NCBI GenBank assembly: GCA_017640685.1
Contig: JAEPQF010000018.1
Coordinates: forward strand, 1 to 37,701
Length of the DNA: 37,701 nucleotides
DNA from: Hyphomicrobiales bacterium
GTDB lineage: Bacteria; Pseudomonadota; Alphaproteobacteria; Rhizobiales; HXMU1428-3
Direction of reading: 5' to 3'
In this document: positions 6,966-33,706 of the stretch, piece after piece
How positions within the stretch are numbered: the first letter of the stretch is position 1
Layout: each line of letters opens with the position of its first letter
Translations under genes and position numbers: made by a program
The notes under the pieces: generated by a model
Databases searched by the model: none
Told to the model about the DNA's origin: nothing
What the model saw: the letters and a program-made list of their open reading frames with translations, nothing else

Positions 6966-7151
6966 GGCGCCTTTAGGTTGCCCACTAGCAACCGGCGCTG
7001 TTGCCTACAGAAATCGTAGTATATTAATCCGCGCAGTTTTTTTAGTCGTGCTTCAGATGCCACTTTTTAATGCGGCTTCGGTTTCCCACCAGAAACCGCC
7101 GCGAGCAACCGCGCTTTTTTTGCGCTTCAGATGCCCACAAAGCATCCGCGC
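6966..7151 (+). repeat. Family A cluster: single (6966-6998), nested pair (outer 7048-7114, inner 7072-7102), single (7122-7151) abutting the nusA stop
   Basis: GGCGCCTTTAGGTTGCCCACTAGCAACCGGCGC; GCGGCTTCGGTTTCCCACCAGAAACCGCCGC inside GTGCTTCAGATGCC...GAGCAACCGCGC; GCGCTTCAGATGCCCACAAAGCATCCGCGC. Confidence 0.88.
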
Positions 7152-19149: not shown

Positions 19150-19262
19150 ACCTACGAGGAGCGGGATTTTCAGTACTTCAGGTTGCCCACTAGCAACCGC
19201 ACTGCACCGGGCAAGCTAGCTTGCCATGTCCCTCAGCCCGAAAAGGGCTGTGCTCCTTCTTC
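19150..19262 (+). repeat. Family B element (copy 3, 5' incomplete) with nested family A hairpin (19172-19203)
   Basis: CCTACGAGGAGCGGG...[AGTACTTCAGGTTGCCCACTAGCAACCGCACT]...GGCAAGCtaGCTTGCCATGTCCCTCAGCCCgaaaAGGGCTGTGCTCCTTCTTC. Confidence 0.8.
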
Positions 19263-19722: not shown

Positions 19723-20865
19723 TTAAAACCCCTCATTAGCGGCTCTGCCGACCAATTGACCTGATCTATCGCAAATTAAAATCTCTATTTGAATTGTTTC
19801 ATCAGTTAGTTTTTCGTCTACTATCTGTTTGGCTTTCTCTGCGACTAAATTTCCAATATCTAACTCATTGGCTTTGGCGTCATTTAAAATTTCCAATGCT
19901 GTGTTTGCTGATTTTGCTTTTTCTACAATTTCGTCTGTTGCCCCTAAAGTATTTAATAGAGACCCAAGCCAGGCTTTATCGACTTGTGAGCGTTTTGAAT
20001 GAAGGTCCATTTCGCCCATTGCTAATTTGCTCATTTTGGCAAAGCCGCCAGCAATTGTTACTTTTGGCACCGGGTTCTTTTTTAAATATTTCAGCATACC
20101 GCCAACAAAGTCACCCATGTCAATAAGATCTGTCTCATTTAATGAGTGAGTTTTCAAAATCAGCTTTTCAGACATATTGCCAACAGCGGCACCAATATGA
20201 TTTGTATTGGTCGCTCTTGCCACATCAATACCGCGATGGATTGAGTGAATCCAGGCTGAGCAAGAATAAGGAACGACGACCCCTGTTGTTCCTAAAATGG
20301 AGAGACCACCGACAATGCCTAAGCGTCCATTCCAGGTGCTCTTGGCGATCTTCTCTCCATTGGGCACTGAAATTTCAATGTTAACATCTGGGCTGACATT
20401 GTGCTCATTCGCTAACTCCTCGATGACCTTTGTCATAAGTTCTCGAGGCACAGGGTTTATCGCTGGTTCACCTGGAGGAATGGGGAGACCTGGTTTGGTC
20501 ACGGTGCCAACTCCTGGGCCGGCTTTAAAAAAAACACCTGATTGATTATCATTCCAACTGACTGTTGAAATTATGGTGGCACCATGGGTGACATCTGGGT
20601 CATCACCGGCATCTTTGATAATGCCAGCACTTGCACTTTCTGCATTTAATTTCGTGTTGGTGACCGAAAAAGTTGGGGTTTGCCCTTTTGGCAACGTGAT
20701 CGTAACAGCTTTTGAAAATACACCGGTGATCAAAGCTTTAAACGCAGCTTTGGTTGCAGCAGTGGCGCATGCCCCTGTTGTCCAGCCGTATTTCAGCTTT
20801 TCTTTTGTGCTGTTTTTATCAACCAAAACTTTACATCCTGAAACATAACTACTTTCATCCAACAT
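19723..20865 (-). CDS. cbiD: Cobalt-precorrin-5B C1-methyltransferase CbiD
   Basis: LKYGWTTGACATAATKAAFKALITG...GPGVGTVTKPGLPIPPGEPAINPVPREL. Confidence 0.94.
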   Translation of the reverse strand: MLDESSYVSGCKVLVDKNSTKEKLKYGWTTGACATAATKAAFKALITGVFSKAVTITLPKGQTPTFSVTNTKLNAESASAGIIKDAGDDPDVTHGATIISTVSWNDNQSGVFFKAGPGVGTVTKPGLPIPPGEPAINPVPRELMTKVIEELANEHNVSPDVNIEISVPNGEKIAKSTWNGRLGIVGGLSILGTTGVVVPYSCSAWIHSIHRGIDVARATNTNHIGAAVGNMSEKLILKTHSLNETDLIDMGDFVGGMLKYLKKNPVPKVTIAGGFAKMSKLAMGEMDLHSKRSQVDKAWLGSLLNTLGATDEIVEKAKSANTALEILNDAKANELDIGNLVAEKAKQIVDEKLTDETIQIEILICDRSGQLVGRAANEGF

Positions 20866-20932
20866 GGTGCGCAGATGGATTGAAGTGTCAAGTCAAACCC
20901 TAGACTTTAATGTGTTTCCACAGTCTTAAAGC

Positions 20933-22606
20933 CTAGTCATAATCTCTTGGTGTATAGAGCAATTCAGTTTGATTTGGTCCTTTGATGATTTTGGTTTTTG
21001 AGGAGCCAATGATTATCATAGTCCGCATATCGATCATATCAGTATCTAATTCAGCAAGGCTGGTAAAATGGGTTTGCTCGCCTTTTCTGCCAACATTTTT
21101 AGCCAGTAAAACATTCGTCTCTGCTGCTTTGTGCTCTAATAACAACTCTTTCATACGCAAGACTTGCTCGCGGCGAGTTTTTGATGCTGGGTTATAAATG
21201 GCGATGACCATGTCTGATTTGGCAGAGGCAATGAGGCGTTTTTCTATGATATCAAAAGGTTTGCGAATATCTGACAAGGAAATGACTGCAAAATCATGCC
21301 CTAATGGCGCACCAGTTAGGGAGGCGGCTCCTTGCATGGCAGAAAGACCTGGACAGACTTTAAAATCAATATTTTGCCAACGGACGGGGTTTTTATCAAT
21401 CGCTTCAAGAACCGCACTGGCCATTGCGAAAATACCGGGATCTCCAGAAGAGACAACCACAACATTGTGCCCTTGATTGGCAAGATCTAATGCATCTTTG
21501 GCGCGATCTAACTCAACGCGATTATCTGATGCTAGGCGCTGTTGACCAACACGAACTGGTACCATGTCGACATATGTTTTATAGCCAACCAGAATTTCAG
21601 CTTGTTCTAAAGCTTGTTTTACTTCTGGTGTTAACCAGCTTTCTTTACCTGGCCCTAAGCCTATGACGGTGACTTTGCCAATAGCTTTGCCGAGATAATT
21701 TATTTCTGGCGGTGATTTTAGTTCAATAAGTGAGAGGTCTTTTGCTTCTGCTACTTTGGCACGGCGAACAATTGCTAGTTCAGAATAATTTTCAACAATT
21801 CGCACCGGCACCTTTAAAAGAGACGCTAATTTTTTTGCGCAAAACATAGGCCCTGTTTTATTGGTGGCTATCGCAGCAATTGCTTGTTTTGAAATCCCTA
21901 ATTCTTTGCAGGCTGTATCGATATCATCGAGGGTTGTTTCCTCATTTTCTATTTCAATTAAAATAGACTTTGGATGATAGAGCAGACCATTTGTTGGCGG
22001 TGTTTCATCGAATACACTGACGCGAAGTGTTATCTCTCCATCTAAAGTGAAAGGGAGAGTGCTATCTTCTAACCAATTTGCATGGCCGTCTAATTGCAAA
22101 CTTTTGCCATTTAAAATATCTGATGAGATGCGTTTGGCATCCTCTGGGTTCGCTAACACATAGTTTTCAGGTGGGGCTTCTAATTGCAAAGCAAAATGAC
22201 GGGCGCCACTTGCCGTAATTGCGGGGATGCCACTTGTGATCCGGCTGATTTCTTTTGCCAATTCATTGGCGCCGGTTAAGCCGCCAAGAAGAGGCACAAC
22301 AAGAGCACCATCATCAGAGACAGATAAAAGCGGTGGTTCTTTGCGTTTATTGTTTAAAATGGGGGCTAGGCTGCGAATTAAAATGCCAGAAGCGCATAAG
22401 CCAATGATGGTTATTCCATTTTCAAAAAGCTCTTTTAAATGAGCCCCTGTTTCTTTGAAACTTTTGTCGGCGCTGTCCACGCGGTCTTCAAGCCCCCAGA
22501 TGACGACTTCGTCTTTGAGTTGTTGTTGAATGAGTTTGGCTGTCTCGGTCCCTTTATTATTGAGAAGGACAATTGCGATTCTTTGCATAGAAAATTCAGA
22601 GCTCAC
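20933..22606 (-). CDS. cobJ: Fusion: CbiG-like N-terminal half and precorrin-3B C17-methyltransferase CobJ/CbiH C-terminal half
   Basis: N-half: IIGLCASGILIRSLAPIL...VSDDGALVVPLLGGLTGANELA...IPAITASGARHFALQLEAP. C-half: GKVTVIGLGPGKESWLTPEVKQALEQAEILVGYKTYVD...VVVVSSGDPGIFAMASAVLEAI. Confidence 0.92.
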   Translation of the reverse strand: MSSEFSMQRIAIVLLNNKGTETAKLIQQQLKDEVVIWGLEDRVDSADKSFKETGAHLKELFENGITIIGLCASGILIRSLAPILNNKRKEPPLLSVSDDGALVVPLLGGLTGANELAKEISRITSGIPAITASGARHFALQLEAPPENYVLANPEDAKRISSDILNGKSLQLDGHANWLEDSTLPFTLDGEITLRVSVFDETPPTNGLLYHPKSILIEIENEETTLDDIDTACKELGISKQAIAAIATNKTGPMFCAKKLASLLKVPVRIVENYSELAIVRRAKVAEAKDLSLIELKSPPEINYLGKAIGKVTVIGLGPGKESWLTPEVKQALEQAEILVGYKTYVDMVPVRVGQQRLASDNRVELDRAKDALDLANQGHNVVVVSSGDPGIFAMASAVLEAIDKNPVRWQNIDFKVCPGLSAMQGAASLTGAPLGHDFAVISLSDIRKPFDIIEKRLIASAKSDMVIAIYNPASKTRREQVLRMKELLLEHKAAETNVLLAKNVGRKGEQTHFTSLAELDTDMIDMRTMIIIGSSKTKIIKGPNQTELLYTPRDYD

Positions 22607-22610
22607 CTTT

Positions 22611-23354
22611 TTAAACTGGTTTCTCGCAAGGGATAACGATCACTGAGAAATACGCAACATCATTTGGATGTACATCTTTAACAGGAAAAATACGCTCTTT
22701 TTCCATTGTAGCTCGCTCTACATAATAAGCATTATCAATAATATTAGCTTTTTCTAATGCACGGACAACTTTTGGAAAGGTGCGACCTAATTTCATTATC
22801 ACTGCACTACCACATTGGTTTAAGCGCTCGACTAATTCATCTTCACTTAATGTCGCAGGGAGAATAGAAACTGTATCTTCACGGTGACAGAGCGGCATGC
22901 CTAATTGCACAGGTGCTGCAAGAATAGAAGAAATACCAGGGACCACTGTTATATCATAACGATCTGAAAGGCGCGCGTGCCAATACATGTAAGAGCCAAA
23001 AACAAAGGGATCACCAGCGCAAATAATTGAAACATTTTTGCCTTTGTCTAAAATTCTAGCGATTTCTTCAGCTGTTTCATCATAGAACTTATTCATCAAT
23101 GGCAGATAAGAACTTGTGTCAGCCACAGGTCCAGCTGTGACTGGGTAGATTAAGGGCAGGAGTTCATGATTTTCGGTTAAATAAGGCTCAACGGTTTTGC
23201 GGGCATTGCCGCCACTTGCTTTGGCAGATGGAAAGGCCACAACATCTGACTGGGCCAGGAGCTTTACGGCTTTCATGGTCACAAGTTCAGGGTCACCTGG
23301 CCCAACGCCAAGGCCAAATAGTTTGCCTTTGCTGTTGTTTACGCCTTCGCTCAT
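22611..23354 (-). CDS. cobI: Precorrin-2 C20-methyltransferase
   Basis: GKLFGLGVGPGDPELVTMKAVKLLAQSDVVAFPSAKASGGNARKTVEPYL. Confidence 0.93.
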   Translation of the reverse strand: MSEGVNNSKGKLFGLGVGPGDPELVTMKAVKLLAQSDVVAFPSAKASGGNARKTVEPYLTENHELLPLIYPVTAGPVADTSSYLPLMNKFYDETAEEIARILDKGKNVSIICAGDPFVFGSYMYWHARLSDRYDITVVPGISSILAAPVQLGMPLCHREDTVSILPATLSEDELVERLNQCGSAVIMKLGRTFPKVVRALEKANIIDNAYYVERATMEKERIFPVKDVHPNDVAYFSVIVIPCEKPV

Positions 23355-23978
23355 TTATTCTTTTTCCTTCGCGATTGCGTTTAGTGCCGCAACGGCCATG
23401 GCGGAACCACCTCTTCTGCCATGAACAGTGAGGAAGGGAACACCCCTTGGGTTCAAACTTAATTCTTCTTTTGATTCAGCCGCACCAATAAAACCCACCG
23501 GCAAACCTAAAATGGCAGCTGGTTTCGACCAGCCCTCATCCAAGAGTTCTAGCAAACGAAACAGGGCTGTTGGCGCGTTACCAATAACCACCACAGACCC
23601 TTCAATTTTATCTTTCCATAAATCAAGAGCAGCTGCTGTTCTTGTATTCCCCATTTCTTTTGCAAGAGCTGGTACTTGCTCTTCGTGCAATGTGCAAATC
23701 ACTTCGTTTTTGGCTGGCAAACGGGCTCTTGTGATGCCATTGGCGACCATCATCGCATCGCAGAAAATAGGGGCGCCAGCTTCTAGCGCAGCTCTTCCCT
23801 TTTGCAGCACATCTTTTGAAAAGCCGACATCTTTGGGTAAATCTGTTGTTCCAACGGCATGGATCATCCTCACAACAACTTTTTCAAGGTCAGCTGGAAT
23901 GTTAGATAGGTCAGATTCAGCTCTAATAGTGGCAAATGAGCGCTTATAGATCTCAGCGCCGTCTTTTATGTAGTCCAT
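23355..23978 (-). CDS. cobH: Precorrin-8X methylmutase
   Basis: DYIKDGAEIYKRSFATIRAESDLSNIPADLEKVVVRMIHAVGTTDL...GLPVGFIGAAESKEEL. Confidence 0.94.
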   Translation of the reverse strand: MDYIKDGAEIYKRSFATIRAESDLSNIPADLEKVVVRMIHAVGTTDLPKDVGFSKDVLQKGRAALEAGAPIFCDAMMVANGITRARLPAKNEVICTLHEEQVPALAKEMGNTRTAAALDLWKDKIEGSVVVIGNAPTALFRLLELLDEGWSKPAAILGLPVGFIGAAESKEELSLNPRGVPFLTVHGRRGGSAMAVAALNAIAKEKE

Positions 23979-24086
23979 TGAAGTGTCATTCTGTAACTAA
24001 ATTTTAAAAAGCAACTTATGCAGCTCTGAAGCGGAAAGCGCAAGCTTAAGTTTTGTTTTCTTAAAAGGGGTGAGAATTGGACCGAA

Positions 24087-25400
24087 CTAAATCATTTTCT
24101 TAATTTCAGAGATTAATTGGTCTTTGGTTACGGCTTTGCCAGGTTTTTTGGTGCTTGGGCTGGTGTTTGTGTAAAGAGAGATATTATCAGAGTTTCGTTT
24201 CTGCATGATGAGATATTGAGTTGGATTGCGTGTGGCGCACCCTTTTTCACACGCGGATAAATGAATTGAAACCGGATTGGGTATTGCAAATTCGGAGAGT
24301 TCATCCCGCAAATTCAGGGCCGTTAATTTGGTCTCAAAGCCGCCATAAATGCAGCCCTCACTGCCAGAACATGAGATGATTTGTAAATTCTGTTCACTTT
24401 GCTGGGTCAGCAGAGCCATAGCTTCAGCCTTTTCCCAAATATCCGCAATATGATCTTCTTCAATTGAGGGGAGAAGTATTCCTTGCCATGTGGTTAAGCG
24501 CAGCTCATCACTTCCATAGCGATCGACTAATTCAGCCAGGCCTTCAAGTTGGAAATATTTCAATCGTCCTGTTGGGGAGACCAAATTGATGGCCGTTTTA
24601 TTTTGTTCTTTTTGCTTCGTTAGGTTTTTCGGATGTAGCAATTGTTTATTTTTGTTTTGCTCAAGAAGCTCAATAGCTTTATTCGGTGCGATGATTTCCA
24701 ATAGTTGTTTCCCGCCCAATTGGGAAAGTAAATTTTTAACGCGGATATTTTTTGATTTATCTTCAGCGATGTCACAATTATTGGAAAATCCATTATATGG
24801 TTTTAGGTGATCGAGAATTTTTATAATCTCATCTATGATATTTGAAGGATTTAAATAGAGCGTTGTTAAATGCCCGGCTAAGCTTACTTGAAACTTTGCT
24901 TCATGATTTGTTGCTTCATTCTTTACCGCTAGAAATGCGAAATCATGAGGAGTTGTGCCGATGTTTGTTTCTCCGCCGCCATCAAACACAAAGGCCATTT
25001 TGGGTGAGTATAGTTCTGGATGATCTAATTTCGAAAAAGCTTCATCCAAACTTTTGACCATCTCTGTACAATCTATTAATTCATCACAAAGTCCAGCTAA
25101 TGGGTCCATTGTGATGTTCCTTAATCGGTCATGCTCAACGGATTGCGAGATTAGCTTTTCATTTAACAGTTTTTGTACAAGCTCGTTCGTAGCATCTGGC
25201 TTGATGCCTCGCAGTTGAATATTTGCCCGATTGGTGAGGTCAATTGTGCCGTTGCCGAAAGTTTCTGCTGCTTTGCTTAACACTCTGGCTTGTTTGGATG
25301 ATAAGATACCACCTGGTACGCGAATGCGCGCCAAGAGGCCATCTTTCATTTCAGATAATTTATATATTCCCGGACATTCAGCCATAGTTTGATTTAACAA
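24087..25400 (-). CDS. cobG: Precorrin-3B synthase (nitrite/sulfite reductase-like)
   Basis: AECPGIYKLSEMKDGLLARIRVPGGILSSKQARVLSKAAETFGNGTIDLTNRANIQLRGI; C-terminal SACEKGCATR. Confidence 0.9.
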   Translation of the reverse strand: MLNQTMAECPGIYKLSEMKDGLLARIRVPGGILSSKQARVLSKAAETFGNGTIDLTNRANIQLRGIKPDATNELVQKLLNEKLISQSVEHDRLRNITMDPLAGLCDELIDCTEMVKSLDEAFSKLDHPELYSPKMAFVFDGGGETNIGTTPHDFAFLAVKNEATNHEAKFQVSLAGHLTTLYLNPSNIIDEIIKILDHLKPYNGFSNNCDIAEDKSKNIRVKNLLSQLGGKQLLEIIAPNKAIELLEQNKNKQLLHPKNLTKQKEQNKTAINLVSPTGRLKYFQLEGLAELVDRYGSDELRLTTWQGILLPSIEEDHIADIWEKAEAMALLTQQSEQNLQIISCSGSEGCIYGGFETKLTALNLRDELSEFAIPNPVSIHLSACEKGCATRNPTQYLIMQKRNSDNISLYTNTSPSTKKPGKAVTKDQLISEIKKMI

Positions 25401-25550: not shown

Positions 25551-25635
25551 CGCTTTGTGCTAATTGAAGGCTTTTTTCTCTCGCAGTTAAACTCTGCCAA
25601 GGAGTGCCTGATAAATTTAAGTTCGAAATTATCCT

Positions 25636-25667
25636 AAAAAGGCGGCTAATGATTTAGCCGCCTTTTT
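25636..25667 (-). terminator. Strong bidirectional intrinsic terminator after the dual-ATPase gene
   Basis: AAAAAGGCGGCTAA-tgat-TTAGCCGCCTTTTT, perfect 14-bp stem with T-tracts on both strands. Confidence 0.92.
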
Positions 25668-25684
25668 ATTCTTTAAACCTGTCT

Positions 25685-28600
25685 TTATTCAAACTCGAAG
25701 CCGATTTGGCTGCTTGGGTCTTTGCCGAGGGTTTCGCGGCCCAGTTCTTCGATCCTGTCGAACGGCACCTGATCTGCTTGAATGAGGGAGCGCTGTGATT
25801 TAATCGCTTTCACCGCCCCTTCTTGAATGAGGTGGAACTCACCAACTGTTTGGTTCGGCAAAACAAGAGCTGGGTCTATGCCGCTGTCACTTGAGAAAGC
25901 TGCGCGCAATTTTCTAAGCGCTGTGTCTTCTCTCACCTTACCAATAAACCAGGATGTGATTTGATCTCTTGATTTATAGTCAAGATCGCCCGGACTTTGC
26001 GTGGCTAGCATCAGCCCCATGCCGGCAGAGCGAGCGCGTTTGAGTAAGCTCTCTAATGGCTCTTTCGTTGCTGGTTTTGAGTTTGCCGGGATGTATAAAT
26101 CCGCTTCGTCAAACATCACCATGGCTTGCAACACATCTGATGGGTTGCGCTGGCAGAAGCGCAGAGCTTCACCAAGGAACTGAGCCACCCAGAACAAGAT
26201 GTTTTCATTATCGCCCAAGAAGCCTGTGTAAATGATGGAAAGTTTAGTTTTTCCTGGTTTTTTATGTTTTTCTCTGCCCAAGAATGCTTCCATAGACATC
26301 GATTCGCCTGCTCCATCAAAGAGGGCATAATTTCGGTGGCTTAGACTATCTAACTGAGCGACCAAATCTTTCCGCAAGCGGCCGTTCGGGTCCATCCGTG
26401 AAATCACTTCTGTGAGCTCGGATTCTTCCTCATCCATAAAGGTGATGAGATCTGTTAGTGTCACTTCTTTTCTGGCAAACTCACCTAACAGTTTCAAAGC
26501 CACAGAGAGGATACCGCTATAACGCTGGTGCGTTGGTGAGACACCAAGGTGCAGCATTTCCCCCAAAGCGGCAGCTGACATATTCGCTAACTCTAATTGC
26601 TCATGATCGTGCAAATCTGCCATGCCTTGAGGCAAGAGCGTAATTGAAATAGGCCTACCTGATGTGCGACCAGGTGTGTAAACGGCTATATCTGTATGTT
26701 CTCTTAAATAAGCTTTTTGAGCACGGCGTTCTTCTGTGTCGTTCGGGTCATCTTCCCACACATCTGAATTCGCGTAAGAGCAAAGGTCACCTTTTCTATC
26801 AATAAGAACAGCAGGGATATCCTGCATCAACAGCTGTTCAATGAGAGACAAAGCAAGAGTTGTTTTACCAGAGCCTGAGCCACCTAGAACTGCAGCGTGA
26901 CGTCTGAGCAAGCTGGTTTCAAGGTTTGCTAAATCTGCTGGGTTTCGCATGGCATGGCCAAGACGCAATACGCCATTGGTGACACCGGCTGGTAGGTCAG
27001 AGCCTTCAGCATTTTCAATTTGCTCTAACTGTGCATTGAGCTGTGTTTCTATTGCCGATGGTGACATTGGTGCTTCTTGCGCTTCAGCAATAGGGCCTGT
27101 TTCAGTAACTGTATCAATCAACTCCAGATTAGGCGCTGCTGCGGCACCACCGGTTAGCTGGTTGTGCATTGAGGTTGCACTGCCATCATCACCGTGTGAG
27201 AGGCCCAGCAACATACGAACAGATGGTAAGTCTCTGAGTGGCCGAACAGATTTTGTCCAGGTTTTGATATTCGGGTCTTTATGATATTTTTCACGGAAAT
27301 CTTTCACCATGATCATCCGTTCCCATTCATAAATGGGAATAACCAACCGATTGCCGCCACTTTGCAGATATTGACGCACCGCAACAGCTGTTGAACTTTT
27401 GGCGTTTGGTGGGAAATCACTTGCGCGCAAGACAACTGGTTTGCGCCCTTGAGTGGATGCCATAACCCGCTCCATTTGGCGGCGCAATCCACCACCTTGG
27501 CTAGAGCGGTTACACATAAAGAGGCGTGAATTTTCTTTTTGACCAGAGCCATGAGAGACAATCACATCAACAGCGGAAACTTCTTCAATCCAACCAATAG
27601 GTTCTATCTCAATTTCTGTGCCTTGATCACATTCATCTTTGGCCAAAACAAGCGCGCTTGCTAGCACGCTCATTAGATCACCTTCTTCAGCCGGAATTTC
27701 TGGCTGATGATCGAAGGTGAATTTTTCCCAAAGCTGGTTAAGGTCTTCAGCAGCAACTTTTCTGGCCTCTACTAATGGAGACACGGTTGCTGGCGTGAGT
27801 TTGTTGGTTAAGTTCGAGCCTGTTTGGACCGATGGTGGGGTTTGACTTGCTGGTGTGAACTGAGAAGCTTCTTTCTCGTCCATTGAGCAAGGTTTTTCAC
27901 CAGAGAGTTCCAACCATCTTGTTTGCGATGCCTCAAGCAATCGTCTGGTTGGAAGGCCAGCCACTTCATGGAAGAAACTTTCACCAAAAATATCTTCTGC
28001 CCTTGGCGGCGTTTCATCTGTTGATGTTCCTTTGGCCTTGTGAAAGGCTTGGCTAATACGGCGATTTAAAATCATCCGTGCTTCATCAGCGCTACACATT
28101 TCGCCTAAAAGGACGGGCTCTGTTTTTTCAATCCGGTCAATAAAGCTTTGCGGCAAGAACTGACGCATTTGGAAATAGAAATCATCAAGACAAGAAATCA
28201 AAATAATCGATGATGACACCCGATTAGCTATTTGGATCAAATCACGAATGGCTTTTTGAAAGCGCTCTTCAGGATCATCAAAAAAGCGAAGATCTTCAAC
28301 TTGGTCTATGCAGAATACAAGCGGGGACCCTTCCGTTGCATATGTAATTTTACCAATAGATTCAATGAGTTCAAATGGGCGATCTTGCGATGTTTTAATC
28401 TCTAACGCTGGGACCATTTGATGACTGCGCTTTGTTAGCGCTGTGCCATATAGGAACTGACGCACGCGTTGGTCTATGCGTGGGTCATTTCTTTGTAAAT
28501 ATAAAAGGGCGCGCACAAGGTTAGCGTCTAAATCTTCTTCAATAAAGGGATGTGAGGAGACGATGTCATCTGCCATATCTGTGATGAGTTCACCTAATTC

Positions 28601-29092
28601 ATCGGCGCTAAATTCACCTTCTCTTAATTCTTCAACTTGTTCGTCCTCAATTAGTTCAGCTTCTTTCACCAAACGATTGGACATGCGCACCAAACCGCTT
28701 TCACCAAATTCAGCTGGGTCATAAGGCTTTTCAAGCGCATTAATGAGACGCCTTAAATAATAGTCAGCATAATTGGTGACATCAGGTGTCATTTGCGCAT
28801 AACCGAAATAGGCGCGGCGTGTTAAATGAGATGATGTGCGAAGGGCACGAATGAGGTGTGTTTTACCAGCGCCTGATTGGCCGTGAAACAACATCATACG
28901 TGATTGTACACGATGCGGTGCTAAGGTCACGCTATCGAGAATTTCATTGAATTTTACCCGCGCGGTTTTGTGCACCTCTTCCACGTCAAATGGATCTAGT
29001 CGCCAAACGTCATCTTCCCACGTGATGGAATGTTCGAAGGTTTGGGCGTTTGGCTTCCATATCGCGTTTTCAGCCATACTTGCAACTGTCAT
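25685..29092 (-). CDS. Large dual-ATPase protein: N-terminal AAA domain, unassigned middle region, C-terminal HerA/FtsK-like ATPase
   Basis: N-terminal Walker A GQSGAGKTHLIRAL and Walker B-like PLVFCIDQVEDL; C-terminal Walker A GGSGSGKTTLALSL with IDRKGDL, Walker B MVMFDEADLYIP, and RARSAGMGLMLATQSPGDLDYKSRDQITSWFIGKV. Start MTVASMAENAIWKPN at 29092 lies just downstream of the previous ORF's stop; the track start 29197 overlaps that ORF. Confidence 0.85.
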   Translation of the reverse strand: MTVASMAENAIWKPNAQTFEHSITWEDDVWRLDPFDVEEVHKTARVKFNEILDSVTLAPHRVQSRMMLFHGQSGAGKTHLIRALRTSSHLTRRAYFGYAQMTPDVTNYADYYLRRLINALEKPYDPAEFGESGLVRMSNRLVKEAELIEDEQVEELREGEFSADELGELITDMADDIVSSHPFIEEDLDANLVRALLYLQRNDPRIDQRVRQFLYGTALTKRSHQMVPALEIKTSQDRPFELIESIGKITYATEGSPLVFCIDQVEDLRFFDDPEERFQKAIRDLIQIANRVSSSIILISCLDDFYFQMRQFLPQSFIDRIEKTEPVLLGEMCSADEARMILNRRISQAFHKAKGTSTDETPPRAEDIFGESFFHEVAGLPTRRLLEASQTRWLELSGEKPCSMDEKEASQFTPASQTPPSVQTGSNLTNKLTPATVSPLVEARKVAAEDLNQLWEKFTFDHQPEIPAEEGDLMSVLASALVLAKDECDQGTEIEIEPIGWIEEVSAVDVIVSHGSGQKENSRLFMCNRSSQGGGLRRQMERVMASTQGRKPVVLRASDFPPNAKSSTAVAVRQYLQSGGNRLVIPIYEWERMIMVKDFREKYHKDPNIKTWTKSVRPLRDLPSVRMLLGLSHGDDGSATSMHNQLTGGAAAAPNLELIDTVTETGPIAEAQEAPMSPSAIETQLNAQLEQIENAEGSDLPAGVTNGVLRLGHAMRNPADLANLETSLLRRHAAVLGGSGSGKTTLALSLIEQLLMQDIPAVLIDRKGDLCSYANSDVWEDDPNDTEERRAQKAYLREHTDIAVYTPGRTSGRPISITLLPQGMADLHDHEQLELANMSAAALGEMLHLGVSPTHQRYSGILSVALKLLGEFARKEVTLTDLITFMDEEESELTEVISRMDPNGRLRKDLVAQLDSLSHRNYALFDGAGESMSMEAFLGREKHKKPGKTKLSIIYTGFLGDNENILFWVAQFLGEALRFCQRNPSDVLQAMVMFDEADLYIPANSKPATKEPLESLLKRARSAGMGLMLATQSPGDLDYKSRDQITSWFIGKVREDTALRKLRAAFSSDSGIDPALVLPNQTVGEFHLIQEGAVKAIKSQRSLIQADQVPFDRIEELGRETLGKDPSSQIGFEFE

Positions 29093-29102
29093 GCTGTGTC
29101 CT

Positions 29103-30197
29103 TTACTCATTCTCATCTTCCACCCTAATAAAATGCCATTCGGAATTTTTGTAGGCGATGCGACTTTCCGCAACATCTTCAACATTGGATTTATCACGCA
29201 GATCAGCGATGGTTAGCCTTAGCAACCCTGCGCGCTGAGCGTTTAAAATCATGTCTTTATATTCTTCCTCGTTTAAACTCCACTGCGGAAACTTGGCTTT
29301 TAAATCGCGCCAGACATGAGAAATAAATGCGCGTTTATTACCTGGCCATCCAACGGCACTTTTCGCAGCAATGTCTTTTACCTCACGTGTGAACTCTGGT
29401 AATTCCGGCGGGGCTTCTAGAATAGGGGTCATCCTTTTGGGCACTTCACTTGATTCTTTATTGTTAATCAATTGCCGAAATAACATTTGACGGAGCTCGC
29501 CTGCACTTTCATTCATGGCGCCAACAACCTCTGCGGCTAAGCACGCCATCAATTCCCCATCACTTTCAACGACATGGCGAGATTTTAATAATTTCGCACC
29601 CATCATCACGGCCTCTTTATGGGAAAGATTTTTTTCGTGGATTGGTGTGGTGCGTATGCCAGCTGTAAGACCGCGGCGTTCAGCAACTGTTGCAAGACCG
29701 ACACGAATTTGCTCAAGGCTAGCTGTGGCTATATCCAACGGCAGTGCAAAATGATCAATAATAATGGCACATCTTAGTCCTTCTGCTGAGAGAAGTCTTT
29801 GGGCTAATTTTCCATTGGGGGCTAAATTTAGGGCCAGCGCGGTTAAATACCCGTCTCTAATCTCGTGCCATGCAAGTTTGGGTAAACGAGAAACCTCTAA
29901 AAACTGTAAAATTCTTGGCAGACTGTTTTCAGTGCACATATAAGCGTTTGCGCGAACAGGACGCATTAGCCCGCAATCAACAAGGCGAACAATGATTTGC
30001 CCTAAAACAGAGCGCCATTCTTTTGCGCTGACTTGATGCATCACAATGGGATGTAAATCCTTGCGCAATTGAACCTCTGTTTCCCCTTCTTCAGCACCAA
30101 ACGCCAGCCTTAAAAGCACAATATTTTCAATCGTGTGAGTGTTAAGACGAGCTTCTAATGTTTGAGCATCTTGTAGCATAACCGCTCTTTGCTGCAT
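29103..30197 (-). CDS. Unassigned protein, probable partner of the dual-ATPase; possible winged-helix regions
   Basis: Start MQQRAVMLQDAQTLEARLNTHTIENIVLLRL at 30197. The upstream part of the track ORF (MLVGNLKEPKNSAVACGQPKAQLKESTV) is translated repeat DNA. 10-nt gap to the ATPase, same strand. C-term RAFISHVWRDLKAKFPQWSLNEEEYKDMILNAQRAGLLRLTIADLRD looks wHTH-like. Confidence 0.8.
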   Translation of the reverse strand: MQQRAVMLQDAQTLEARLNTHTIENIVLLRLAFGAEEGETEVQLRKDLHPIVMHQVSAKEWRSVLGQIIVRLVDCGLMRPVRANAYMCTENSLPRILQFLEVSRLPKLAWHEIRDGYLTALALNLAPNGKLAQRLLSAEGLRCAIIIDHFALPLDIATASLEQIRVGLATVAERRGLTAGIRTTPIHEKNLSHKEAVMMGAKLLKSRHVVESDGELMACLAAEVVGAMNESAGELRQMLFRQLINNKESSEVPKRMTPILEAPPELPEFTREVKDIAAKSAVGWPGNKRAFISHVWRDLKAKFPQWSLNEEEYKDMILNAQRAGLLRLTIADLRDKSNVEDVAESRIAYKNSEWHFIRVEDENE

Positions 30198-30216
30198 GAC
30201 TGTACTCTCTTTAAGT

Positions 30217-30510
30217 TGCGCTTTAGGTTGCCCACAAGCAACCGCGCTATTTTTTGGCTCCTTCAGGTTGCCCACAAGCAACCGTCGCGAGTGCTCCTTC
30301 AGGTTTTGTTTCTTGTGCTTCAGATGCCCACTTTTTTAGTGCTCCTTCGGTTGCCCACTAGCAACCGTCGCATCAACCCCGCTTTTTTGTTACGTTTTAG
30401 GTTGACTTTTTAGTGTGCCTTTAGACTGTCACTAGCAACCGGCACAAAGCACCGTCGCATCATCCACGTGATTTTTAGCCCCCTTCAGTTGCCTACTTAC
30501 ACAACCAGGG
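30217..30510 (+). repeat. Dense family A cluster with apparent multi-level nesting, upstream of the dual-ATPase operon
   Basis: GCGCTTTAGGTTGCCCACAAGCAACCGCGC; GGCTCCTTCAGGTTGCCCACAAGCAACCGTCGC; GTGCTTCAGATGCCCACttttttagt[GCTCCTTCGGTTGCCCACTAGCAACCGTCGC]; GTGCCTTTAGACTGTCACTAGCAACCGGCAC. Confidence 0.85.
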
Positions 30511-30952: not shown

Positions 30953-31585
30953 ATGAGACCTGCTCTTATATCCTTACAAATGTTATTTGTATTATTTCTT
31001 TCTGGTTGTTCTACCATCCCGCTAAATGAAGGTATTTTTAGCGCTAAAGAAGCTAATTCTGAGCTTTATGCGCCAAAATCTGATGGTATTGAGAAACTTT
31101 CGAAAAAAGAACTTGCGGCTGGAAAGTTGCCTGAGGGCACTTATGACAAAGCCCCTGTTGGTGCTTTTCAACATCGCAACTATAGCAAGGTAAGACTAAA
31201 CCCCAATGATGCCGTTAAGCTGATTAATCAATATCGCAAATCAAAAGGGCTTGGCTCTGTTTCCATTGATCCAAAATTGACTGCTACAGCGAAACAACAT
31301 TCCTCTGATTTGGCCAAACATGATCGAATTTCTCATTATGGATCAGATGGCTCTAACCCGTGGGATCGGGTTGAACGCTCAGGCTATAATCCACAGTTGG
31401 CAGCTGAGAACGTTGGCACCGGACAACTTTCGATCAAAGAAGTGATGCAAGGCTGGAAAGATAGCCCTGGTCATAACAAAAATCTTCTTCTTCCCGATGC
31501 AAAGCACATTGGCATTGCTCTCGTCTATGACCCGAAATCTGAATATAAAACATTTTGGACGCTAATTTTGGGGGCCAAAATATAG
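30953..31585 (+). CDS. CAP-domain (SCP/PR1) lipoprotein
   Basis: Lipobox LFLSGCS; LINQYRKSKGLGSVSIDPKLTATAKQHSSDLAKHDRISHYGSDGSNPWDRVERSGY...AENVGTG...MQGWKDSPGHNKNLLLPDAKHIGIA. Confidence 0.92.
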   Translation: MRPALISLQMLFVLFLSGCSTIPLNEGIFSAKEANSELYAPKSDGIEKLSKKELAAGKLPEGTYDKAPVGAFQHRNYSKVRLNPNDAVKLINQYRKSKGLGSVSIDPKLTATAKQHSSDLAKHDRISHYGSDGSNPWDRVERSGYNPQLAAENVGTGQLSIKEVMQGWKDSPGHNKNLLLPDAKHIGIALVYDPKSEYKTFWTLILGAKI

Positions 31586-32365: not shown

Positions 32366-33706
32366 CTAATTCGCAGTCTTGCTGCCCAAAGCAAAAATAT
32401 TGATTTTCAAGCGAACTTTAATGGCGATGAAAAACAATATGGCGGCTAGAGTGAGAGAGAGTGCTGTGGCGCTGGCTGCGCCGATTAGGCCGAAATATGG
32501 GATAAGTAAGAAGTTTAAACCAAGATTGACCATCGCCGTTAGAAACAAAAGCACGGCACATATTTTTTGCTCACCTAACATATTCAACACATATTCTGCC
32601 GGGCCAAACATAGATTTAATAACCAAGCCAACCGCCAGGATAAACATCACCGGATAGGCATTTGTAAATTCTGGGCCAAACAGCCAAAGCAAGGGCTTGC
32701 CCATTGCCAGCAACAAAATAGCAGCACCCAATGAAGGCCAGAAGGTCCATTTCACGGATTGGCGGATGAAGGCAGCTAAGCGCTCTTTATCCCCCCTTGC
32801 TTCATAGGCTGAAAAGCGATTGGCCACAGCATTGGCGACAGCAAAATGAACAAAGGTGATGAGATTGATGGTCTTAAGGGCAGCGTAATATTGCGCGATA
32901 TCTTCAGGAGGGTGATATTGCGAGAGCACCAACACATCTGTGTTTTGCAAGAACAGCACAAAGCTCTCAACTAAAAGAATTGGAAAGGCTGTTATAAGCC
33001 AGAATTTTGTTTCATTTTGCTTGGCACCTTTAGGAACTTCTTTTCGAATTCGAGGTTGGAGAAACGCTATTTGTATGATTGAAGTTAGCCAAGTTGCTGC
33101 AACGGCTACTGAGATAGCTGTTAGTGCCGTTAAAGGCAAACCTGCCATGTATGCTGTTGCCATACCGAATAAAATCAACATGGGGCGCAAGAGAAATGGC
33201 GGGATAAGCGCCATATTCATCCAGCTATAACCGCGTGCCATTGAATCATGCAGATCTGTGATGGCGTAAGCTGGCAAACATAACAGCACCAATATAGCTG
33301 GCAAAAAGACATAACTCTCAACATAATCTTTTAACAAAAACAATAATGCCAAGCTGATGCACATCAGCGCTGTTGAGACAATTAAAGTTATGATCCGGCT
33401 TTGAAAGATGATGCCGCGCAGTTTATCGAGCTGATTTTTCTCTGTATATTCAGGAATGAAGCGAATGACAGCCGTGTTTAGCCCAATGGTTGAGAGGCCG
33501 CCCAAAAGCAGCAGCCACACCCATACATAAGCATAAATGCCATATTCATAGCTTCCCATCCAGCGGGCAAGCAAGATTTGGCTAAGGTAAGCAAGCCCAG
33601 CGCTGCCAACCCGAATGATGAACGCTAAAATGGCATTTCTGCCACTTACCGAGCCATCAGAGTCGCCACGCAATCGATTTAGGATCGTATTTACCTTAGC
33701 AATCAT
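32366..33706 (-). CDS. Polysaccharide/lipopolysaccharide flippase (Wzx/MATE-like)
   Basis: Multi-TM; GRNAILAFIIRVGSAGLAYLSQILLARWMGSYEYGIYAYVWVWLLLLGGLSTIGLNTAVIRFIPEY. Confidence 0.9.
   Translation of the reverse strand: MIAKVNTILNRLRGDSDGSVSGRNAILAFIIRVGSAGLAYLSQILLARWMGSYEYGIYAYVWVWLLLLGGLSTIGLNTAVIRFIPEYTEKNQLDKLRGIIFQSRIITLIVSTALMCISLALLFLLKDYVESYVFLPAILVLLCLPAYAITDLHDSMARGYSWMNMALIPPFLLRPMLILFGMATAYMAGLPLTALTAISVAVAATWLTSIIQIAFLQPRIRKEVPKGAKQNETKFWLITAFPILLVESFVLFLQNTDVLVLSQYHPPEDIAQYYAALKTINLITFVHFAVANAVANRFSAYEARGDKERLAAFIRQSVKWTFWPSLGAAILLLAMGKPLLWLFGPEFTNAYPVMFILAVGLVIKSMFGPAEYVLNMLGEQKICAVLLFLTAMVNLGLNFLLIPYFGLIGAASATALSLTLAAILFFIAIKVRLKINIFALGSKTAN

Follow-up and report, generated by a model that had tools for sequence, protein, structure and literature searches.

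The adjacent genes P0001 and P0002 form a real two-gene unit, and they are core genes of one bacterial family, in which they lie at a fixed chromosomal site. In its architecture the pair resembles a predicted defence system, and by the genomic measures taken here it behaves like core cellular genes. The original prediction considered a defence role plausible; the look of an accessory or defence-island system is not supported, and what we find instead is a core pair at a fixed site with the signature of very strong purifying selection, and its conserved gene neighbourhoods, which had been proposed as a check, point to a stable cellular role.

The locus and its gene products

The window (the whole stretch of DNA analysed here, 37,701 bp long) has the following features in and around the pair:

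25685..29092, minus strand: P0001, the dual ATPase gene (1135 amino acids, ATG start, stop codon counted in), recognised as an ORF with family matches and full-length orthologues
29103..30197, minus strand: P0002, the partner gene (364 amino acids from the ATG at 30197, stop codon counted in), recognised as an ORF with a structure model of pLDDT 90.8
25635..25668, no strand assigned: intrinsic-terminator-like hairpin 3' of P0001, a 15-bp perfect stem followed by a T run
30210..30475, no strand assigned: leader with copies of the palindromic repeat GGTTGCTWGTGGGCAACC, a genome-wide repeat that is not specific to the pair
30953..31585, plus strand: CAP/SCP-domain protein gene, a divergent neighbour kept with the pair (Pfam CAP 6.1e-26 and synteny; context only)
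32366..33706, minus strand: MATE/flippase-like gene, an order-wide flank (context only)

The open reading frames of the window confirm the predicted arrangement of two adjacent minus-strand genes, with P0002 upstream of P0001 and a gap of 10 nt between them; an in-frame TTG at 30281 gives P0002 an alternative start and a longer frame. The pair had also been said to be isolated by a strong terminator and by repeats. Both elements are real, but the repeats do not isolate the pair, as GGTTGCTWGTGGGCAACC is present in 72 exact copies genome-wide (0 for the reversed control) and in the window is found at 30226-30243, 30266-30283, 30349-30366, 6976-6993 and 19181-19198. Some copies are in tandem at a spacing of about 40 bp and are REP-like; no Y1 REP transposase (Y1_Tnp) for them was found in the genome, and an Rfam search gave no match near the pair. 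Downstream of the pair, positions 19723-25400 of the window hold the cobalamin biosynthesis genes cbiD, a cobJ fusion, cobI, cobH and cobG. These lie beside the pair in the window's genus and are absent there in the other families read; the cobG beside the pair evolves much more rapidly than the genes around it (45-53% identity, against 86-90% for P0001).

The two proteins are divided into domains as follows:

27893..29047, minus strand: AAA/STAND (Orc-like) ATPase domain of P0001, residues 16-400 (Pfam matches, invariant motifs)
27188..27757, minus strand: middle domain of P0001, residues 446-635, a predicted REase-like fold without ExK
25718..26980, minus strand: HerA/DUF87 motor domain of P0001, residues 705-1125 (Pfam and PDB HerA matches, invariant motifs)
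29889..30143, minus strand: N-terminal winged helix of P0002, residues 19-103 (model; 30% mean identity)
29115..29411, minus strand: C-terminal winged helix of P0002, residues 263-361 (model; 54% mean identity)

P0001 does contain the two P-loop modules that had been read from its sequence. The N-terminal one matches the Pfam families AAA_22 (5.5e-11), AAA_16 (8.4e-10) and nSTAND1 (3.1e-7), and its Walker A (GQSGAGKTH, residues 71-79) and Walker B (FCIDQVED, 260-267) motifs are intact; it is an AAA+ ATPase whose profiles fit either the Orc/CDC6 or the STAND type. The C-terminal module matches DUF87/HerA (5.2e-12) and HerA_C (1.7e-8) as well as the PDB HerA structures 8wiv and 4d2i, and it has the features of the HerA/FtsK superfamily: a Walker A motif (GGSGSGKTT, 737-745), a Walker B acidic pair (FDEAD, 994-998), a Gln sensor after the Walker B strand (ATQ, 1030-1032) and an upstream arginine, with the arginine motif KRARSAG. 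The motifs quoted earlier are present, and all of those given here for the AAA and HerA modules (K-R-A-R included) are invariant among the P0001 orthologues. Of the proposal of a HerA/FtsK-type motor for DNA or conjugation, the HerA type holds and the conjugation motor does not. A Pfam profile search found no nuclease domain in either protein, in keeping with the earlier failure to recognise one.

The region between the two ATPases, which had been suspected of being a separate alpha/beta domain, is one; its AlphaFold2 model (42 sequences, pLDDT 89.1, pTM 0.85) has an alpha-beta-beta-beta-alpha-beta core plus extra helices. In Foldseek this domain matches the endonuclease EndoMS best, at a probability of 1.00, E 2.8e-3 and TM 0.33, with Mus81-Eme1 lower in the list; a PDB sequence search with it gave nothing useful. 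The second-strand aspartate is conserved, the ExK position is occupied by R-x-F, and ExK is also missing from the middle domain of the distant relatives described below. The model is suggestive, short of proof of the fold, of an REase-like domain, which without ExK is probably inactive. Modelled to residue 639, the domain closes with two short helices and has no wHTH; residues 636-704 are a linker (17% identity) that lies mostly outside the model.

In the model of P0002 (45 sequences, pLDDT 90.8) a helical domain lies between two winged helices. The N-terminal winged helix is the most variable of these domains and the C-terminal one the least, as would be expected if the C-terminal end of P0002 contacts the conserved ATPase. 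Over its whole length P0002 has a mean distance of 0.59, which is above every neighbour measured (0.35-0.47), and P0001 has one of 0.32. P0002 has no family match in Pfam, NCBIfam, PADLOC or PHROGs, a PDB sequence search with it gave nothing useful, and Foldseek returned no match below E 0.001, the weak matches being MarR/PadR/GntR-like winged helices. PADLOC, NCBIfam and Pfam contain no named system for the pair, only partial sub-family ATPase matches.

Distribution, inheritance and selection

P0001 is present in 100 of the 103 Hyphomicrobiaceae genomes and in 74 of the 76 good ones (Hyphomicrobiaceae here is our group f2, so taken since it includes the named Hyphomicrobium PB1.3.35 record); HSDR_N, a type I restriction subunit taken as the control, passes its cut-off in 38 of the same 103. 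These genomes give no sign of a second copy of P0001, the extra matches being contig or domain pieces; the genomes compared are drafts. Across the order about a tenth of the sampled genomes carry P0001, and in the class-wide sample it was found only in the window's own genome, in searches that scored two candidates per genome and so could miss distant relatives. The named orthologues come from Hyphomicrobiales, namely from Hyphomicrobium, from Filomicrobium and from MAGs that bear the label Methyloligella, Rhodomicrobium or Hyphomicrobiaceae; a few others, with labels such as Devosia or Hyphomonadaceae, are probably misnamed MAGs. P0002 lies beside P0001 in 78 of 79 loci, the sole exception being cut by a contig end, and this co-conservation upholds the view of it as a dedicated partner. 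A phage collection has no match to the pair, and plasmids have distant partial matches only.

All 17 carriers among the 59 genomes of an rpoB tree belong to one clade of 22 genomes (support 100/99). The carrier pattern takes 3 changes on this tree, against 15 with shuffled labels (none of 500 shuffles was as low), and its simplest reading is one gain and two losses of the pair. The distances between P0001 proteins track those of the neighbours (Spearman 0.88 with the CAP protein and 0.82 with the flippase), the gene order dacF-(DUF924)-flippase-CAP-P0002-P0001 is kept across several families, and non-carrier relatives retain the dacF-DUF924-flippase locus without the pair. The setting is not the patchy one of a mobile element: the family-wide presence, the fixed locus and the single gain on the rpoB tree all speak otherwise. 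Around the pair lie CAP, flippase, dacF, cob, moeA and PBP genes. Nothing in the conserved neighbourhood was recognised as a defence gene, neither P0001 and P0002 nor their conserved neighbours gave a match to an active REase, the locus has no linked gene for NurA or another nuclease, and no nuclease of the DUF559 family, which was sought in trans, was found in the window's draft genome.

Within the genus, P0001 has a dN/dS of about 0.02 and P0002 one of about 0.03; the neighbours range over 0.026-0.078 in the nearest pair, for which alone the values are reliable, as dS is high and partly saturated; there P0001 is below every neighbour measured. These ratios indicate that P0001 is under very strong purifying selection.

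Further genes recur next to P0001 in other families. An atypical transglycosylase (PBP-like) gene and moeA are often found 3' of it (L030:13449-15929 and similar), and in three families a ParA-like ATPase gene is convergent and directly downstream (L033:6391-7296, L034:11394-12533 and L035:10947-12782). The latter is a possible link to DNA segregation.

Relationship to other HerA-containing systems

HerA/FtsK capture systems were described in 2024 (NAR) by a comparative study that predicted an anti-invader role for them (PMC10853773). Their core consists of an Orc/CDC6 ATPase followed by an inactive REase, together with an active REase, HerA and a wHTH; the wHTH after the iREase, C-terminal in the AAA protein, is a trait of the class, and some of the systems also have a rapidly evolving multi-wHTH protein (PMC10853773). 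The pair is like them in having an Orc/STAND AAA+ ATPase, then what may be an inactive-REase-like domain, HerA, and a linked protein with several winged helices, and P0002, with two winged helices and a divergence of 0.59 against 0.32 for P0001, has the character of the fast-evolving companion found in that subset. Unlike them, the pair has no active REase gene, the modelled stretch of P0001 shows no wHTH after the middle domain, and the setting is non-mobile, near-universal and vertically inherited in one family. Because it has neither an active REase nor a mobile setting, we consider the pair a relative with the same kind of engine and do not file it as a member of the class. Its origin probably lies in nuclease-bearing HerA capture systems or in an ancestor common to both, the nuclease having been lost here or gained there. 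The system was originally offered as a candidate undescribed one; its domain combination is in fact published as a class (PMC10853773), but we found no description of a nuclease-free, vertically inherited version.

Other systems share less with the pair. The best PADLOC match is Mad8 of MADS (mad8, 1.3e-21), which covers the HerA part only (residues 730-1098), and the methyltransferase and other mad genes were not seen in the pair's conserved neighbourhood. In DndFGH, as in the pair, a large protein (DndH) ends in HerA and a companion (DndG) is built of winged helices; the pair, on the other hand, has no DndF, its DndH match (1.6e-7) is to the HerA part only, and the helicase, methylase-like and active REase parts that DndH has are not seen in P0001. 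HerA-NurA, HerA-SIR2 and HerA-DUF4297 also combine a HerA motor with a partner protein, but P0002 is a winged-helix protein rather than a nuclease or NADase, without a NurA, SIR2 or DUF4297 match, and the HerA of P0001 is fused to AAA and REase-like domains.

Distant relatives of P0001 are found in a three-gene operon that encodes a DUF559/MTES_1575 nuclease, a small winged-helix protein and an AAA-HerA ATPase. Five complete examples are known to us, in two genomes of the order (L042:7745-12838 and L043:4720-9796), in Methylobacterium aquaticum (L134:4722-9731), in Nonomuraea (L135:4672-9806) and in Tsukamurella (L183:7275-12243), and L131 has a partial copy; the operon spans Alphaproteobacteria and Actinomycetota. 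As in the window, the ATPase (about 1080 amino acids) has an AAA-middle-HerA design and the winged-helix gene is directly upstream in the same order. The operon ATPases have about 20% identity to P0001, with the same three parts, and share with it GKTHL and DQ[IV][DE] in the AAA domain as well as the HerA motifs. The small winged-helix protein was considered as a P0002 homologue, which we do not claim (hhalign probability 6.5%). Unlike the window pair, the operon has the nuclease gene in all five complete examples, and its occurrence is sparse and scattered, with 3 carriers in 249 genomes of the order and 0 in 288 others of the class, where the pair is near-universal in one family. One operon is on a plasmid, adjoining a VapBC toxin-antitoxin pair; viral contigs scanned with the operon ATPase gave no relative. 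The nuclease and small protein of L042 and L043 match no PADLOC model, and the operon looks like a capture-type defence system without a PADLOC entry of its own; it fits the HerA/FtsK capture class well (PMC10853773). The two genomes of the order that have it, G037 (L042) and G054 (L043), are in or beside the carrier clade and have this nuclease version without the two-gene pair; these two cases only might hint that the two versions functionally replace each other.

Possible functions of the pair

Because of the core status of the pair, the selection on it and the missing nuclease, we favour a chromosomal function, and judge the chances about even that the pair is a fixed DNA translocase without a linked nuclease that acts on the cell's own chromosome. 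In such a machine the fast-evolving N-terminal winged helix of P0002 would bind DNA and its conserved C-terminal winged helix would dock on P0001, the AAA/STAND module might load or gate the assembly, the HerA domains would pump double-stranded DNA as a hexameric ring, and the REase-fold domain might be a DNA-binding or scaffolding part that holds the DNA. It would most likely move, segregate or help repair chromosomal DNA rather than destroy it, since no nuclease gene lies alongside. On the simplest reading of the tree the pair entered the clade once, and it has since been retained, near-universally and as a unit, at the same site. Several observations count against this reading. The closest architectural kin are predicted defence systems, the divergence of P0002 beyond all the neighbours measured also fits arms-race recognition, and the nuclease version in G037 and G054 might mean that the two versions do interchangeable, defence-like work.

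These same observations, together with the DUF559 nuclease linked to the distant relatives and the plasmid copy beside VapBC, speak for a standing immunity of the core genome, in which a vertically inherited HerA pump catches phage or plasmid DNA as it enters the cell, aided by a nuclease encoded elsewhere, or by none if the DNA is blocked, extruded or compacted. We regard this as the main rival, a serious but less likely reading: it is unusual for defence genes to be near-universal and under such extreme purifying selection, the type I restriction control has a patchy distribution over the same genomes, nothing around the pair in the conserved neighbourhood was recognised as a defence gene, and no nuclease partner was found, either as a domain match in the pair or as DUF559 in the draft genome. 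A mobile or accessory two-gene anti-phage system is suggested by a HerA dual ATPase with a dedicated partner, as HerA is found in many defence systems, but it is very improbable, being largely refuted by the presence of P0001 in 100 of 103 Hyphomicrobiaceae genomes and contradicted by the fixed locus, the single gain and few losses, and the lack of any but distant, partial plasmid matches and of any match in the phage collection. Vertical core status would also suit a repair motor of the HerA-NurA kind, in which the pump and a separately encoded nuclease process the cell's own broken DNA ends, and PMC12977600 reports HerA with NurA in end resection in archaea; the absence of a linked NurA or other nuclease gene, and the AAA/STAND and REase-like domains ahead of HerA in P0001, make this unlikely.

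The combination of HerA, AAA and partner is insufficient to call a defence system, which is a caution for defence-gene prediction. Whether HerA capture engines can be domesticated for work on the cell's own DNA, and what their role is once the nuclease is absent, is now a testable question.

A more specific form of the favoured chromosomal function concerns reproduction. Hyphomicrobium and Filomicrobium, which are among the named carriers, are hyphal budders, and the pair could be a dedicated chromosome pump that moves DNA along the narrow hypha into the bud, or one that clears DNA caught at the bud neck. We think this a long shot. There was no match in the class-wide sample, which probably included other budding lineages, and this counts against it; the near-universal presence of P0001 in Hyphomicrobiaceae and the dacF and transglycosylase genes nearby would fit. 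If true, a capture-type defence engine would have been put to a new use in cell reproduction. How DNA is transported into the buds of Hyphomicrobiaceae is poorly understood, and the family in any case gains a near-universal, unstudied DNA-motor candidate.
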